From a virus, in IMG/VR virus record IMGVR_UViG_3300009135_000015, positions 1-20,277 of that record: a stretch of 20,277 nucleotides of DNA. One strand, written 5' to 3'. The notes beneath the pieces were generated by a model. It saw only the letters and a list, made by a program, of their open reading frames with translations. It made no database searches and had not been told where the DNA came from. Positions 8,908 to 16,071 of the stretch are shown here, in pieces (the first letter of the stretch is position 1; every line of letters starts with the position of its first letter). A program made the position numbers and the translations under genes.

Positions 8908-10518
8908 TTACGATAAAGTCTGGTATGAATCGTGCCACCACTGCGGGATCATCCCGTTAGTCTGCGACTTCAAGAATCCGAATGATTGGTCGAGAACATA
9001 CACAGATCCGGTGTCTTCAGGCCCACGTACTATGCGGCCTCCGCCCTGAATAATATCAATCAATGCGCGGCGTTGATACCACACTTTTGACATCTCCATT
9101 CTGCGCTTGATCCACTGGTCTCCGAGAGATCCGAATGGCACCTTCGCAAAGATAGCGAATTTGCCGAGTTCTCCTTTCAAATCAAGCCCTTCTGTGCTGG
9201 ACGGTGAGATGAGTACGCCTGGTTTTGGATTGCCGATGAACGCTTTGATAATCGCGTTGCGATCGTCTCCACTGCCTGGATTGTGGCTGAAGATCTGTTG
9301 CTCGACGTCGAGGTTGTCACATAGCCACATAGCGATCTTGAAGTTTCCTGTATGGATGATTCCTGATTCACCTGCGTGCATGGCGAGCAGCTTCTCAATC
9401 GTCTCAAGCATATCCTTCTTGCCTGATGCACTCTCTTGCCACTTGTAATTCATCTTGTGCTGAGGCATGTAGTAAACGGGACGATTCGAAACATCGAATT
9501 CAGACTGCAATGATAGGAATGCTGTATCTTCTGGATCGATACCAATGTCGCGGCAGAATCCTTCTTTGTCGAGTACAGTTGAAGACATGAACAAGAATTG
9601 ATCTGCCATCGGTTCGACGATGTTGTGGAATGCTCTCGCACCACTCAGTCGCTTGAACTCAAACATCTTCGGATCATTGACGAGAACGAACTCGTCATTC
9701 AGCTTCTCAATCTCAGCGTCTTCGCAACTGCTGAATACGATCACTTCTTCGAAAACGTGCTGCTGAAGTTTTGCATACTCATTCAGCTTGTTCAGTTCAC
9801 CTTTTGTCAGATCGCTTGGATCTTTATTCTCGAGGTATGCAAGATCGTTCCCCATATCCTCAACAACTTCTCTCATCTTCGGGAAGTAGACATCACGGAG
9901 ATAGTTGCACGCTTTCTTCAACGTGTCACAAGTCTTCCACTGAACGTCATACTTCTTGCACCGCCACTCTGTGATTGCAAGCGCGTCGAATCCAACAAGG
10001 CTTTCTTCAAGTGTGTGGCATTCGTCAAGAATCATCAGATTACGAGCAGCAGGCGTACCGTCTTTGTATTTGAATAGACGCGTAAATGCCCACACTCCCA
10101 AACCGAGAGCATAGTTCATTACGGTGTTGCAACTTGATTTCGCATTGTCCCGAGCATTGTCGTAAGGACAGTCTTTACAGCGCGGCTTAACAAGCGAGCC
10201 AACGGAACAATCAGCGTTCTTCGTATGGCATTGATAATTGGATTTGCCGTAGAATGATGCGAGATCAATCTCGGGGGTTGTCTGGAATGATTCCTCATAT
10301 TGCTCCTGAAGAATCCGTTGCGGCGTAAGCACGAATGCATTGCTGCCGCGGTATAGTGAGTACACGAGACCTATATTGGATTTACCAGCGCCCACAGGTG
10401 CCTCCAGAATAAGGTATTTCTTGTCTTGATTGGCGGCGAGCCACGGAAGTGCTATTTCCTGATTCCTGCGTGGAGGGTAGGGAAACGGCCAATGATTCAT
10501 AATGGTAGATTCAGTCAT
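8908..10518 (-). CDS. DinG/Rad3(XPD)-like superfamily 2 DNA helicase with Fe-S cysteines
   Basis: ATP-dependent 5'-3' DNA helicase of the iron-sulfur DinG/XPD type. Walker A is LEAPVGAGKS (residues 38-47). Four cysteines in the Fe-S arch position (C97, C104, C114, C117; spacing x6, x9, x2) are followed by NYALGLGVWAF. The DExH box is DECH (165-168). Motif V-like GVLISPSSTEGLDLKG and motif VI QGGGRIVRGPEDTG complete the set. At 536 residues it is compact and has no added nuclease domain. It ends the long early operon. T4 has UvsW and Dda but no DinG-type helicase, so this is an added or replaced function. Likely role: recombination or repair unwinding. Start ATG lacks a good ribosome site; M7 (10500) is an alternative. 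Confidence 0.9.
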   Translation of the reverse strand: MTESTIMNHWPFPYPPRRNQEIALPWLAANQDKKYLILEAPVGAGKSNIGLVYSLYRGSNAFVLTPQRILQEQYEESFQTTPEIDLASFYGKSNYQCHTKNADCSVGSLVKPRCKDCPYDNARDNAKSSCNTVMNYALGLGVWAFTRLFKYKDGTPAARNLMILDECHTLEESLVGFDALAITEWRCKKYDVQWKTCDTLKKACNYLRDVYFPKMREVVEDMGNDLAYLENKDPSDLTKGELNKLNEYAKLQQHVFEEVIVFSSCEDAEIEKLNDEFVLVNDPKMFEFKRLSGARAFHNIVEPMADQFLFMSSTVLDKEGFCRDIGIDPEDTAFLSLQSEFDVSNRPVYYMPQHKMNYKWQESASGKKDMLETIEKLLAMHAGESGIIHTGNFKIAMWLCDNLDVEQQIFSHNPGSGDDRNAIIKAFIGNPKPGVLISPSSTEGLDLKGELGKFAIFAKVPFGSLGDQWIKRRMEMSKVWYQRRALIDIIQGGGRIVRGPEDTGSVYVLDQSFGFLKSQTNGMIPQWWHDSYQTLS

Positions 10519-11208: not shown

Positions 11209-11778
11209 TTATTTACTTTCACTAACAACGCTCATCGCGTCGTCGTAATTGAGGTCAGATTCTACTTCGGCCATGAATGTTTCAGCCTCGGCTACTCTTT
11301 GTTCGCCTTCAGCAAGAAACGCTTTTGTGTCTTCCATGAGCTGTTGAATTTCTTCACCCTGTGCTTGTTGCTCAACAAGGTCTGGCTCAGGATCTTTGAC
11401 GGCTTCTATACCAAGCCACTTCCCGTCAATGTAAAGTTCGGGTTGGAATGTTTGCTTGTTTACTCGCATCGGATAACCGTTGTTATGAGGTAAAGACTTG
11501 ATCAATGCTTGATATCGTTCATCCCGATTTTCAACAACTGGTCCAATGTCCTTGTCCTCGAGTATTGACAACCACGTCTCGGGCGATAGGTGAACTGTGT
11601 GTTCTGTCATGTACTTGTAGATAGCGTGCCAGCTCTCCACCTTATAAGTTGCATCATAGTCACCTGACATTAGATCGCCCAGAGCGTCTAGTGCGTTTCG
11701 TTGAGCCTCTTCGTGTTTTGTGCTTCCAACCACAGCAACACTTTCCGTTAATTGTAAGTTTGATTCATATTCACTCAT
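11209..11778 (-). CDS. 189-aa protein of unknown function with shared C-terminal peptide
   Basis: No family recognised. Residues about 25-110 are a soluble helical region rich in Trp/Tyr (VESWHAIYKYMTEHTVHLSP; ETWLSILEDKDIGPVVENRD). Residues about 110-125 contain PELYIDGKWLG, and the last third is a Gln/Glu-rich coiled-coil-like helix. It ends LNYDDAMSVV plus SESK; the YDDAMSVV part matches the carboxy ends of three other small proteins at 12446-13214. Its start overlaps the end of the RuvC-like gene by 8 bases, indicating coupled expression. Confidence 0.8.
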   Translation of the reverse strand: MSEYESNLQLTESVAVVGSTKHEEAQRNALDALGDLMSGDYDATYKVESWHAIYKYMTEHTVHLSPETWLSILEDKDIGPVVENRDERYQALIKSLPHNNGYPMRVNKQTFQPELYIDGKWLGIEAVKDPEPDLVEQQAQGEEIQQLMEDTKAFLAEGEQRVAEAETFMAEVESDLNYDDAMSVVSESK

Positions 11779-12259
11779 TCTTTTCTATCTCCTCGATCGT
11801 TCTTGCGATCCAATATGCATCGGATAAATCACCAAGACCAGTCGTTTTCTTTACTCCTAATTCGTCAAATGCAGCTCGTATATTCTCCGGAAGACACTCT
11901 ACGAGTAATTCTTTCGGCGAGTTACCTTTCCCAGTCGCTACTTTTTTAACTGTCCCTGGAGCTACGATTCTTACATCTGCTCCTTTTACGTATCTCATGT
12001 GAGTTGTGATGGAGAACTGGAGACCTGCTAGATCTCGTGTAGCGTTTCCTCTGCTACTAAATGCTAATCCTTCCATCCCAATGACATCAGGATTGTAGTC
12101 CTTTGTCACCTTCACAACACGCTGAACGACTTGCCAAGCTCTCGTGAAAATGTCCTTCGACTTGTCAGTCACGAACTTTTCGCAATGCAGCATTTCTGAA
12201 TCCCGAAGGACAACAATTCCGCTGCATGTGTAACTTTGGTCAATCGCCAATATCTTCAT
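11771..12259 (-). CDS. RuvC-like Holliday junction resolvase
   Basis: Ribonuclease H-fold nuclease that cuts four-way DNA junctions. 162 residues with the RuvC acidic residues in place: D7 in LAIDQSYTCSG, E63 in VIGMEGLAF, and D144/D147 in LGDLSDAYWIA. The central RIVAPGTVKKVATGKGNSPK matches the RuvC-family PxxVKK-x-TG-x-G element. T4 resolves branches with gp49 (endonuclease VII), so a RuvC-type enzyme appears to supply that function here. It lies downstream of gp46/gp47, consistent with a role in recombination-dependent replication and branch removal before packaging. ATG start follows the zinc-ribbon gene by 34 bases. Confidence 0.9.
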   Translation of the reverse strand: MKILAIDQSYTCSGIVVLRDSEMLHCEKFVTDKSKDIFTRAWQVVQRVVKVTKDYNPDVIGMEGLAFSSRGNATRDLAGLQFSITTHMRYVKGADVRIVAPGTVKKVATGKGNSPKELLVECLPENIRAAFDELGVKKTTGLGDLSDAYWIARTIEEIEKNE

Positions 12260-12293
12260 GCTGCTATTTAACAGCGCAAAGAGTGGGGGTTAC

Positions 12294-12449
12294 CTACAGA
12301 TCCATCCAGTCGTCTGTACCTGCTCCTCGGAATAGTCCTTGCTTCTGCCCACAATGTGCACATTTGCGTCTTGGTTGATTTGTAAATTCAATCGATATCC
12401 AAGCGTGTAATCCCAACCAACAAATGAAATCTCTCATCATTTCTGTCAT
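12294..12449 (-). CDS. 51-aa zinc-ribbon protein
   Basis: Begins MTEMMRDFICWLGLHAW and contains RRKCAHCGQKQGLF, ending DDWMDL before TAG. CxxCG (C30, C33), with C10 and H15 upstream, suggests a zinc knuckle using C/H ligands. The ATG overlaps the preceding TGA as ATGA, a classical coupling arrangement, which strongly supports translation. Function is unknown; small phage zinc ribbons of this kind often bind nucleic acid or host enzymes (inference). Confidence 0.75.
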   Translation of the reverse strand: MTEMMRDFICWLGLHAWISIEFTNQPRRKCAHCGQKQGLFRGAGTDDWMDL

Positions 12450-12643
12450 AGAATACTCATTGCTCTGTCGTAGGCGTCTTCGTCAGTGAAGCTAGCTTTG
12501 TCAAGGACCCAGTCCTCTCCATCCCAAACAACAGGCATGAAATTTTCATCAGTGACTTCCATCACCTTACCATTAATCTGAACAATGTAATTGCCAGGTG
12601 TGCGGATCTGTACGACTCCATCTTTTACTGAGATATCACTCAC
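12446..12643 (-). CDS. 65-aa protein with shared C-terminal peptide
   Basis: Starts at GTG 12643, which overlaps the upstream TGA as GTGA. The product is a small beta-rich protein (VQIRTPGNYIVQINGKVMEV; PVVWDGEDWVLD) ending in DAYDRAMSIL. The DG-x-DW segment resembles VFDGADWEL of the 83-aa protein two genes upstream, suggesting the two are paralogues. The end matches the shared Y-[DE]-x-A-M-[GS]-[VI]-[VL] peptide. Function unknown. Confidence 0.8.
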   Translation of the reverse strand: MSDISVKDGVVQIRTPGNYIVQINGKVMEVTDENFMPVVWDGEDWVLDKASFTDEDAYDRAMSIL

Positions 12644-12966
12644 AACACACCCATTGCCCTTTCGTAGTCATCAACCAAATCTTGTTTTATTGATTTTACG
12701 TATAACACAAAGCTGTCATTGTCACGACCCTTGTCCCACTGAATTTCAAGCTCAATGTACGTTCGGTCGAATGTATCTTGATCGAGGCCAACAAAAGCAA
12801 TCGCTGCTTCTAGCATCATCATATCTTTGTGCACTTGGAGAATGTTATCCACATCGGCCTGTATTGCATCCCATGTGTCTAATTCTGAGTGATCCCACGT
12901 CTCGTACATCTTCGTCTTTTCAACGATGTCCTTCACAAGATCAGCTCTACGTTGTAAGTGGTTCAT
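12640..12966 (-). CDS. 108-aa helical protein with shared C-terminal peptide
   Basis: No family recognised. Mostly alpha-helical and acidic (DLVKDIVEKTKMYETWDHSE; ADVDNILQVHKDMMMLEAAI), ending DDYERAMGVL. The body is unlike the 65- and 83-aa neighbours, but its last eight residues match theirs. The ATG overlaps the upstream stop by 4 bases (ATGA), and its own stop overlaps the next start by 4 bases, so all three are translationally coupled. Confidence 0.8.
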   Translation of the reverse strand: MNHLQRRADLVKDIVEKTKMYETWDHSELDTWDAIQADVDNILQVHKDMMMLEAAIAFVGLDQDTFDRTYIELEIQWDKGRDNDSFVLYVKSIKQDLVDDYERAMGVL

Positions 12967-13214
12967 ACTACACCCATTGCTCTGTCATATGCGGCCTCAT
13001 GATCAGGCTCGAAGTTGTTGAAGTCAATATCTTCAACATCAGCCAATTCCCAATCCGCTCCATCGAAGACATAGAATTTACCCTCAGTGGTATTCATCCA
13101 AATGTCACCAGCCACAGAATCGATAGGTTCATCTGTTCCAGCGTAATACTGAATCGTATCGTCATCGTCTGCGACCTTCTTCTTTTTCCGTTTTATCAGA
13201 TTTATTTTAGGCAT
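12963..13214 (-). CDS. 83-aa protein with shared C-terminal peptide
   Basis: Begins with a very basic stretch (INLIKRKKKKVADDDD), then GDIWMNTTEGKFYVFDGADW, a motif of the kind common in phage virion and fibre-associated proteins, then an acidic linker and the end AAYDRAMGVV. Its ATG overlaps the gp46 stop as TAATG, so it is coupled to gp46. A virion role is suggested by the GDIW..G.FYV.DG motif, but its position in a recombination operon argues for an early protein; unresolved. Confidence 0.8.
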   Translation of the reverse strand: MPKINLIKRKKKKVADDDDTIQYYAGTDEPIDSVAGDIWMNTTEGKFYVFDGADWELADVEDIDFNNFEPDHEAAYDRAMGVV

Positions 13215-14977
13215 TACTCATCCTCGTTAATATAGCTGAAACCCTTTGACATTTGTACGAGCATTCGACGATCGAACGCACTGTCAATTTCGTCTCTATG
13301 TGAAATTATATATAACGAAATCTTCTCTTCTCTCGACTTCCGTTTCAGCATCTTCGCCGCCGCTTGTACACCAATCGCATCAAGCCCGACGTCTAATATT
13401 TCATCTAACATACACACATTCACACGTGAATGAATGCTCTGCAACACATCTCTGAACGCAAACGATAATGCAATATTAACACGCGCTTGTTGGCCGTTGG
13501 ATAAGTTACCAAAATCCAAAGGTCGGCCGAATTGTGAAATGCTCGCTGTCATCTCGTGAGTAAATTCCACAACATGTGAGAGGCCGAGCTCAGTCAAGTA
13601 GAGAGCCAATCGCTTGTTCAGGAATGGAATGTTTTTGTTCAGTAGCGCTTTGCGCACAAAGCTGTCTTTCTTCGTCAACAACTTCAATAGGAATTTTTGG
13701 TGCTCACTTTCGGTTGTTAGCTCATTGATCTTTTCCATCTCTATGGGATCGAGCTCAACATCAAGTAGCTCCTGTAACGGCTCAGCGAACGGATTGTTAG
13801 CGTTCTGTTTGTTTTCAAGTTCCGTCTCGTATCCTGCTACCTTGCCTTTGATTTCAATCAACTCTTCGATATCATCAACAGTGATGTCTTTGTCGAGCTT
13901 AGCTATACAGGCGACTGCATCGTCATATATTTTTTGTGCTTTTTCCGTTCGCTTGATGCTTTTCTTTCGTTCCTTATCATTTACCTTCTTTTGGTCTTCT
14001 GCTTTGGCAATTTGAATTTTTGCGTCCTTGATTGATTGCTGACACGCGTAACACTTATCGTCCTTATAGTGAACGATCTTCTTGTCCTCTGCCGCATCGT
14101 CTTTATCCAGTGCGGTAACAATCTTCTGTTCTGTGGCGAGTGTGTTCTTGGAATCACCCCGTACGGTAACCAGATCATCACGCTCACTAATCTTCGCTTG
14201 CTGGTCTTCTATATCAACACCCGCAATCTTAGCCAACTTGCGCTTGATGGTAGCAATCTCATTCTTGTTGGACTTGTGCCAAGCTACAACACGCTTCTCA
14301 GCAGACTCAATCTGCTTCTCGTGTCGTGCGTGTTCTTTTTCCAATCCGTCGATTCGAACTTTTTGAATCTTGAGAGACTCGTCTGTTTCTTTGATGTCCT
14401 TCTTGAGTGCAGTCGCCTTATCAGACAACGTCTTCAAGTCGAACAACTCCTCAATGATGTCTGTTTGGTTTGCCTGTGAAACATGACGTACGGGTAAATC
14501 AAGAAATGGAGTGTGCGTTGCTGATACAGCAACAATGCGAACGAACAGCTCAAAGGGAAGGCCGAGTACTTTCTCGATCAAATCATTTGTGGCTGCAACG
14601 TCAAGTGATAGGTCTTTGCCGTCTTCTGAGAATTTAACCCAGTTACCGGCAGCGCCCGCTTTCATCTTACGAACACGTTGAACGTGATAATGCTTACCAT
14701 CTTTTTCAAAGTCAAGAGTCACTTCCATGTGCTTCTTGTTGATGTTGTTTACAAGATTGTCTTTGGATATGTTCGAGATCGGTTTGTCATATAAGGCATA
14801 CACAAGCGCATTGACAATCACAGTCTTGCCGACACCATTAGCGCCAGCACCTTGAGCTGTGTTGTCGAGATCCTCTCCAAGTATCAGAGTCGTGCCAGGA
14901 CGTTCGAGATTTACGACCGTTGGGACAGCTCCATACGATAAGAAGTTCTTCATCGTTAGTGTATTGAACCTAATCAT
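13214..14977 (-). CDS. 46: Recombination nuclease subunit (T4 gp46, SbcC/Rad50-like)
   Basis: ABC-type ATPase subunit of the gp46/gp47 complex that resects DNA ends for recombination-dependent replication and repair and degrades host DNA. 587 residues (T4 gp46 is 560). Walker A GANGVGKT is at 45-52, two coiled-coil arms at about 180-300 and 320-440 flank the zinc hook CYAC (C309, C312), the ABC signature SNGQQARVNIA is at 493-503, and Walker B CMLDEILDVGLD (D525, E526) is near the end. ATG with AAGGA upstream; it follows gp47 by 17 bases, the T4 order, and its stop overlaps the next gene. Confidence 0.97.
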   Translation of the reverse strand: MIRFNTLTMKNFLSYGAVPTVVNLERPGTTLILGEDLDNTAQGAGANGVGKTVIVNALVYALYDKPISNISKDNLVNNINKKHMEVTLDFEKDGKHYHVQRVRKMKAGAAGNWVKFSEDGKDLSLDVAATNDLIEKVLGLPFELFVRIVAVSATHTPFLDLPVRHVSQANQTDIIEELFDLKTLSDKATALKKDIKETDESLKIQKVRIDGLEKEHARHEKQIESAEKRVVAWHKSNKNEIATIKRKLAKIAGVDIEDQQAKISERDDLVTVRGDSKNTLATEQKIVTALDKDDAAEDKKIVHYKDDKCYACQQSIKDAKIQIAKAEDQKKVNDKERKKSIKRTEKAQKIYDDAVACIAKLDKDITVDDIEELIEIKGKVAGYETELENKQNANNPFAEPLQELLDVELDPIEMEKINELTTESEHQKFLLKLLTKKDSFVRKALLNKNIPFLNKRLALYLTELGLSHVVEFTHEMTASISQFGRPLDFGNLSNGQQARVNIALSFAFRDVLQSIHSRVNVCMLDEILDVGLDAIGVQAAAKMLKRKSREEKISLYIISHRDEIDSAFDRRMLVQMSKGFSYINEDE

Positions 14978-14994: not shown

Positions 14995-16071
14995 TTAAAT
15001 ATGGGTCTTCAGACCTTTGTATATGTCGACAAGTTTCTCGTTGTCGATGTGCTCACTCTCAATGTCTGTTAGCATTTGCAGAACCAGTTCATTAACACTG
15101 GCGAGTTCATGTTCTTCCCAATCAATTGTTGTTTCTGTATCAGAAAGGGCTTCTTTTATTTCGAGAGATTCTTCCATTGAGAATTCTCGTAGAGAAAACA
15201 TCTTTATGTACGCTTCACGAACTGCTGTGCTTTCTTCAAATGTAATTGGTACATCAACGATGCACTTGACTCGTGAGTCAGGATACACTGTTTCGCTCTC
15301 ATTGAGCAAGTCAGATAGCTTGACCTTCAGGTATTTCGGACACTCTTTCCAATCGGTAAACAGCATCTCATCCTTAGCATGATCATATGTCATCATGCCA
15401 CGAGCATCATCACCCGCATCACCGAAATCCATCGGAAACGTATTACCCATATAAACGATGTTTTGATCTGCTTGGCGTTTGTGGAAGTGACCAGATATGA
15501 TGTGTTTTGGCCCAGCAAAATCTGCTGCGTCAGGTCCTGTTGGCATCTTGATACCATAGCCTGTAACTAGGAAGCCTTTGAATTCAAAATGACCAGCCCA
15601 AATTGGTACGTGGCGATACTTCTCAATCAGTTCGGTGTATTCACCATCTGCGTGAAATAGGTATGGAGAAAATAATGTACCACCTTCAATCTCATCGACC
15701 AGAATTGGTTGATCGATAACAATGAAATTGGAGAATTCCTCAAACGGAACGATCGAATGTATCTCTCGATTGTTTCGATTGTAAAGGTCATGATTACCAA
15801 CTACAAAGTAGACTGGCATATCAAGTTCGTTTATGAGTTTGGCGCCTTGATAGGAATAGTTCAGAGTAGCGATGTTGAGAGCACTTCGATTCTCATTCCA
15901 ATCGCCTAAGAAACCAACGTAATCGATTTCTGGGTCTGACTTTACGTGTTCACAAAACCACTCGATAAATCTAATACAGTCTTCGTTGTGAAGAGTTGAG
16001 TTAGCTTTTTTACCAAAGTGTATGTCCGTGAAGAAAGCGCCTTTTTTCAAGGTCTTGTTCTTGTTGGTCAT
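14995..16071 (-). CDS. 47: Recombination nuclease subunit (T4 gp47, SbcD/Mre11-like)
   Basis: Metallophosphoesterase nuclease partner of gp46. 358 residues (T4 gp47 is 339) with all phosphoesterase motifs: D16 and H18 in FTDIHFG, D57 in GFLGDWNE, N93-H94-D95 in VVGNHDLYN, H161 in WAGHFEF, and H195/H197 in ISGHFHKRQ. The carboxy-terminal 100 residues should bind the base of the gp46 coiled coil (known of the family). It lies between gp55 and gp46 as in T4. A small GAGAC-acaa-GTCTC hairpin (16081-16094) lies just upstream of the ribosome site and could modulate its translation. Confidence 0.96.
   Translation of the reverse strand: MTNKNKTLKKGAFFTDIHFGKKANSTLHNEDCIRFIEWFCEHVKSDPEIDYVGFLGDWNENRSALNIATLNYSYQGAKLINELDMPVYFVVGNHDLYNRNNREIHSIVPFEEFSNFIVIDQPILVDEIEGGTLFSPYLFHADGEYTELIEKYRHVPIWAGHFEFKGFLVTGYGIKMPTGPDAADFAGPKHIISGHFHKRQADQNIVYMGNTFPMDFGDAGDDARGMMTYDHAKDEMLFTDWKECPKYLKVKLSDLLNESETVYPDSRVKCIVDVPITFEESTAVREAYIKMFSLREFSMEESLEIKEALSDTETTIDWEEHELASVNELVLQMLTDIESEHIDNEKLVDIYKGLKTHI

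Follow-up and report, generated by a model that had tools for sequence, protein, structure and literature searches.

The question raised by this locus is why small phage proteins with different bodies, encoded close together behind gp46, end in the same short peptide. The window, i.e. the whole stretch of DNA analysed, is the 20,277-base viral record IMGVR_UViG_3300009135_000015, whose source, judging from its portal and gp46 matches, is a T4-like jumbo phage: the portal matches that of XacN1 at 52% identity, and the best matches of gp46 are in jumbo phages. The genes considered here run in one direction, from gp47 and gp46 through three of the small genes, a 51-aa CxxC gene, a RuvC-like gene and the fourth small gene to a helicase further down. 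These features are the following.

14995..16071, minus strand, gp47, SbcD-like subunit, untagged operon context (phrog_100, E 1e-55)
13214..14977, minus strand, gp46, SbcC-like recombination nuclease subunit, untagged operon context (phrog_77, E 8e-95)
12963..13214, minus strand, 83-aa gene directly behind gp46, GDIWxNT tail-fibre-type body plus tag, ending ..AAYDRAMGVV
12966..12989, minus strand, tag YDRAMGVV, final 8 codons of the 83-aa gene (TAT GAC AGA GCA ATG GGT GTA GTA)
12640..12966, minus strand, 108-aa gene, body without assigned function plus tag, ending ..DDYERAMGVL
12643..12666, minus strand, tag YERAMGVL, final 8 codons of the 108-aa gene (TAC GAA AGG GCA ATG GGT GTG TTG)
12446..12643, minus strand, 65-aa gene with GTG start plus tag, ending ..DAYDRAMSIL
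12449..12472, minus strand, tag YDRAMSIL, final 8 codons of the 65-aa gene (TAC GAC AGA GCA ATG AGT ATT CTA)
12294..12449, minus strand, untagged 51-aa protein with a CxxC motif, lying between the 65-aa gene and RuvC (PHROG 15926, E 4e-6, function not assigned)
11771..12259, minus strand, RuvC-like resolvase, conserved neighbour, untagged (phrog_159, E 2e-28)
11209..11778, minus strand, 189-aa gene plus tag, ending ..LNYDDAMSVVSESK
11224..11247, minus strand, tag YDDAMSVV of the 189-aa gene, with SESK behind it (TAC GAC GAC GCG ATG AGC GTT GTT)
8908..10518, minus strand, helicase (DEAD plus Helicase_C_2), untagged, the usual far border of the tagged cluster

A sequence-only reading of the window had singled out the common ending of these four proteins, and all four open reading frames were recovered with these ends. 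The 4-base coupling that it described for three genes behind gp46 was seen at the 83/108-, 108/65- and 65/51-aa junctions, and gp46 shares 1 base with the 83-aa gene. When the tag was removed, none of the four bodies was similar to another, the 83- and 65-aa proteins included (blastp, E<0.01); the bodies are as different as had been claimed, and the possibility raised against the reading, that the four proteins are full-length members of one family, did not materialise. A profile search assigned no clear family to any of the four. The 83-aa protein has tagged homologues in L018 and L028, and its body resembles the repeats of a 1004-aa protein of G014 and of GDIW tail proteins. Tagged homologues were also found for the 108-aa protein (L016, 45% identity) and the 65-aa protein (L016/G004, 67% body identity). 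Single-protein searches for related loci with the 83-, 108- and 189-aa proteins gave no relatives, and for the 189-aa protein neither the related-locus search nor tblastn against cultured phages found a relative outside the window.

First, a YDRAM-type peptide was confirmed at C-termini far beyond chance. In an unsupervised search of 18 contigs, in which all gapped triplets in the last 14 residues were compared with internal windows of the proteins, Y-x-x-A-M ranked first (40 of 1786 ends vs 22 of 25,888 internal windows). The strict motif [YF][DENK][RKHYDN]AMx[VIGFLAT][VIL], which was refined on the same contigs in which it was counted, occurred at 41 of 1848 C-ends versus one of 369,944 internal positions, a rate from which 0.045 C-end matches are expected. 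The same count gave 0 of 1848 for N-ends and a mean of 0.017 C-end matches (maximum 3) for 300 order-shuffled motifs. Because of this refinement, fairer evidence is provided by the unsupervised search and by positions 7 and 8, neither of which was forced during collection: of the 57 tags collected, 41 have I or V at position 7 and 53 have L, I or V at position 8. The strict motif was absent from the untagged relative G006 (0/574), from 79 other gp44 loci (0/996) and from 35 distant gp47 loci (0/665). At the DNA level, the pattern YDRAMx[VI][VIL] plus stop was found at 10 places in viral contigs, mostly of the same lineage, and in 257 Gb of prokaryote genomes it gave only two matches, both in doubtful frames. 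The pattern matches in L099 (a 12-codon frame), L102 (23 aa), L172 and the lysozyme-like L174/L175 were set aside as chance or natural ends.

Second, selection acts on the peptide itself. The sequence-only reading had argued this from the differing codons in the window, and the argument was strongly supported by the larger set, in which Tyr is encoded 26 times by TAT and 25 times by TAC, all six Arg codons and all four Ala codons are used, and the tag is kept between homologous bodies that are only 28-69% identical. The tag is thus firmly a shared, selected C-terminal module. Some mild base-level preference, the cause of which is unexplained, exists at the tag Ala, where GCR rather than GCY precedes ATG in 49 of 57 cases vs the 67% expected for Ala codons before ATG (p 0.001).

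Third, the position and predicted shape of the tag would fit a short helix close to the protein end. In the form Y-[DEN]-R-A-M-x-[VI]-[LIV], the tag would be an amphipathic helix that follows an acidic linker and lies at the C-end or close to it: Y1, A4, M5 and position 8 lie on one face of a helix, and D and E make up 27% of the 10 residues before the tag vs 16% in the bodies. AlphaFold models, which are only consistent with such a helix, place a final helix at residues 97-104 of the 108-aa protein and 72-80 of the 83-aa protein, behind a low-confidence linker (pLDDT ~61). The earlier reading had asked whether the peptide is always C-terminal; the enrichment given above places it at or near C-ends, but 22 of the 57 tags are followed by one to seven further residues and one copy is internal. 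A requirement for a free C-end is therefore unlikely.

The tag extends to many contigs. The first relative, L002, carries differently bodied small genes behind gp46 that end in YERAMKG, YERAMGT, YLRAMEV, YSDAMEV and FERARRA. When a scan with aligned gp47 was performed, 80 loci were obtained. In the gp47 set, 14 rows, the window among them, have between one and six tagged genes within a few kb behind gp46. Many accessory genes of these clusters are tagged or nearly so, and gp46, gp47, RuvC, a zinc-ribbon FmdB-like protein and the helicase never are; the more distant gp47 loci are without the tag. Tagged genes also lie between the clamp-loader genes gp44 and gp62 (G008, L178 and G014) and directly upstream of the topoisomerase gene gp52 (G005 and L105, with gp39 nearby in G005). 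Two further tagged genes of G018 have no clear context, and another stands near the end of G008. In the gp44 scan, only L178, a near relative of G008, was tagged, the 79 others being untagged, and L178 has one tagged gene more than G008. On the gp47 tree the tag does not form one clade; 10 changes are needed, at least six of them forced, which indicates that tagged genes come and go. The motif is not enriched in the cultured jumbo relatives XacN1, RAS14, Atu_ph07 and Phosso, and tblastn of six tagged proteins against cultured phages gave no relatives, one search returning short GDIW-type tail-fibre matches. A search for genes that accompany the tag and are missing from untagged G006 found none that tracks it cleanly. 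A helicase came up and was rejected as a tag-linked gene, since it is also present in untagged L001 and XacN1 and missing in tagged G011.

The bodies that carry the tag are highly diverse. The 57 tagged proteins were collected from open reading frames that are mechanical predictions on metagenome contigs, most of the genomes being incomplete, and 54 of them fall into at least 37 body clusters (blastp of bodies, E<0.01), so that the sharing of one peptide by different bodies reaches well beyond the window. The bodies do not belong to one full-length family, with the exception of the largest cluster, which consists of eight tandem paralogues of 77-85 aa in G021 (L103/L154:619-2583), each ending in [YF]D[YR]AM, then G or Q and two hydrophobic residues. 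Searches of Pfam, PHROGs, NCBIfam and PADLOC left most bodies without a convincing match; the PADLOC defence and anti-defence profiles gave only weak single matches among the 54 proteins (best E 4e-4), and PDB sequence and fold searches returned nothing useful.

Where a body does have a recognisable match, this is mostly to a part of a virion or packaging protein of the kind that the phage itself makes. Two such bodies, of 114 aa in G016 and 145 aa in L034, are tail sheath C-terminal domains with the tag added behind the domain. In G006 (57666-57962), a genome without tagged proteins, the same sheath domain stands alone as an untagged 98-aa protein, which fits the tag as an add-on module. Relatives with the same body and without the peptide had been named as a point against the reading, and this sheath-like family was the one found. 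A 223-aa protein of G016 is the ATPase half of terminase, in which Walker A reads GVSS instead of GKST and LDEF is replaced by LDNS; on these substitutions it should be inactive as an ATPase. Portal stretches were found in a 95-aa protein of G008, which repeats portal residues 258-282 at 64%, in a 95-aa protein of G014, which has two stretches in swapped order, and weakly in a third case, an L021 protein with the degenerate tag AFDRANRAL. The GDIW bodies match tail proteins, and a 324-aa protein of G016, in which the internal tag copy lies at residue 78 after the first (GDVW) of two GDxW-like domains, looks like a fusion.

Herein, we propose that the peptide serves as an address, i.e. a docking tag through which, in each phage, the different bodies reach one shared partner, and we consider this reading somewhat probable. 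Its carriers would be fast-changing small accessory proteins inside the replication and recombination operons of one T4-like jumbo phage lineage, and the single partner might be part of the phage replication/recombination complex, or else a host protein encountered early in infection. Between unrelated bodies, tags are closer to one another within a genome than across genomes (permutation p 0.009), as is expected if all fit one partner; copying could do the same. Among the partners suggested earlier, gp46/47 alone is disfavoured by the tagged genes at gp44/gp62 and gp52. No such tag was described in the literature searched or seen in the cultured relatives checked, and the statement that no described system is known holds to that extent. 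If docking is correct, the shared tail would assign dozens of small, otherwise unreadable phage proteins to one partner as its clients, allow accessory genes of uncultured jumbo phages to be picked out from sequence alone, and offer a bait for finding the hub that the tagged proteins serve. The dead or partial terminase, portal and sheath bodies raise the question of why tagged pieces of the assembly machine stand beside replication genes. As an extension of the docking reading, which we regard as doubtful, the label might have been attached by evolution to such captured gene pieces, forming a changing set of decoys against competing phages or host factors that is directed to a common hub.

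A related explanation makes the decoys themselves the purpose: virion and packaging proteins, copied in part or in a dead form, would poison the assembly of co-infecting phages, while the tag would hold them at the DNA factory or hand their targets to disposal. The terminase half with GVSS and LDNS, the two sheath bodies, the three with portal stretches and the GDIW bodies accord with this. However, most bodies have no recognisable source, the re-use of stand-alone domains needs no conflict, and a phage that makes such a poison would put its own assembly at risk. We consider this explanation improbable.

Turnover is another reading that we consider unlikely. The tag would then act as a degron, giving early accessory proteins a short life or handing bound partners to a host or phage protease. 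Small proteins tagged at their C-ends with hydrophobic last residues would be expected of a degron, and the delivery of bound partners would suit bodies that mimic portal, sheath and terminase. However, the trailing residues of 22 of 57 tags and the internal copy are unlike C-degrons that require a free end, and the permuted tmRNA of G008 has a predicted tag, DDNYYEDLRLAA, that is unlike the YDRAM type, which makes ssrA mimicry unlikely.

Capsid targeting, by which the tag would bring small effectors into the prohead in the manner of the T4 CTS on internal proteins, is distinctly less plausible. The T4 CTS is N-terminal and acts in the prohead core, whereas the phage tag is C-terminal and is carried by genes in replication operons. 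The architecture is the same as in T4, in that hypervariable small internal proteins share only one short terminal signal (PMC3012670). However, the same phages have their own CTS-like signal: MK[LV]x[DE][IL][IL] starts are enriched 8- to 16-fold in G008, G006 and G021 (five vs 0.32 expected in G008), and this peptide looks like a candidate N-terminal capsid-targeting signal. Both roles had been suggested in the sequence-only reading; capsid targeting has been weakened by the separate N-terminal signal and turnover by the trailing residues, and they are retained as rivals.

A sliding-clamp docking tail is very improbable here. In T4, gp43, gp33 and gp55 use an interchangeable C-terminal clamp-binding tail, which resembles the present tag in that one docking peptide, set behind a variable linker, serves unrelated proteins (PMC2988020), and tagged genes adjoin the clamp-loader genes. 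The sequences differ, however, and the lineage has a different shared peptide, [VF][DE][DSN]L[LF]xF, as its putative clamp tail. The gp43 proteins (G005:85360-88451, G008:92691-95868 and G006:280490-283336) end in VDDLLDF, VEDLLGF and VDSLFEF, and the gp33-like protein next to gp43 in G005 and G008, assigned by position and tail rather than by profile match, ends in VDDLLDF and VDNLLQF. Candidates for gp45 were likewise assigned by position (G005:84595-85317 and G008:91948-92652), and PF02916 gave no match. These tails point to the DDLLDF type as the clamp-binding tail of this lineage, and the clamp, which had been listed as a possible partner of the YDRAM-type peptide, is disfavoured. Finally, the idea that the end codons are kept because the next, overlapping gene needs them as its ribosome-binding site or as a coupling signal draws on the many tagged genes that share 4 or 1 bases with the next start and on the mild GCR preference before the Met codon, and it is largely refuted by the free variation of the Y, D, R and A codons, by distances to the next start that range from overlap to no start within ~25 bases (e.g. 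L032 and L035), and by the untagged conserved genes of the same operons, which do without the peptide.

Two other known systems resemble the proposed docking tag in part. Encapsulin cargo-loading and microcompartment encapsulation peptides are short, often C-terminal and partly helical, and recruit diverse cargo to one partner, whereas no such shell protein was identified in the tagged phages. The import of proteins into the phage nucleus of PhiKZ and PhiPA3, for which no N- or C-terminal signal was found (PMC11087766), is alike as selective addressing to a replication compartment, and differs in that these T4-like phages give no evidence of a nucleus.

Two minor observations were also made in the tagged genomes. 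The permuted tmRNA of G008 (L130:4758-4966) matches Rfam RF04321 at 114 bits, with the betaproteobacterial type second, and may suggest a betaproteobacterial host or source. In G001, gp46 (L002:4771-7614) is 947 aa long and contains an intein-sized insert that starts after the Walker A region (..GVGKFQSVDSLVKTPDGWVRMGD..).
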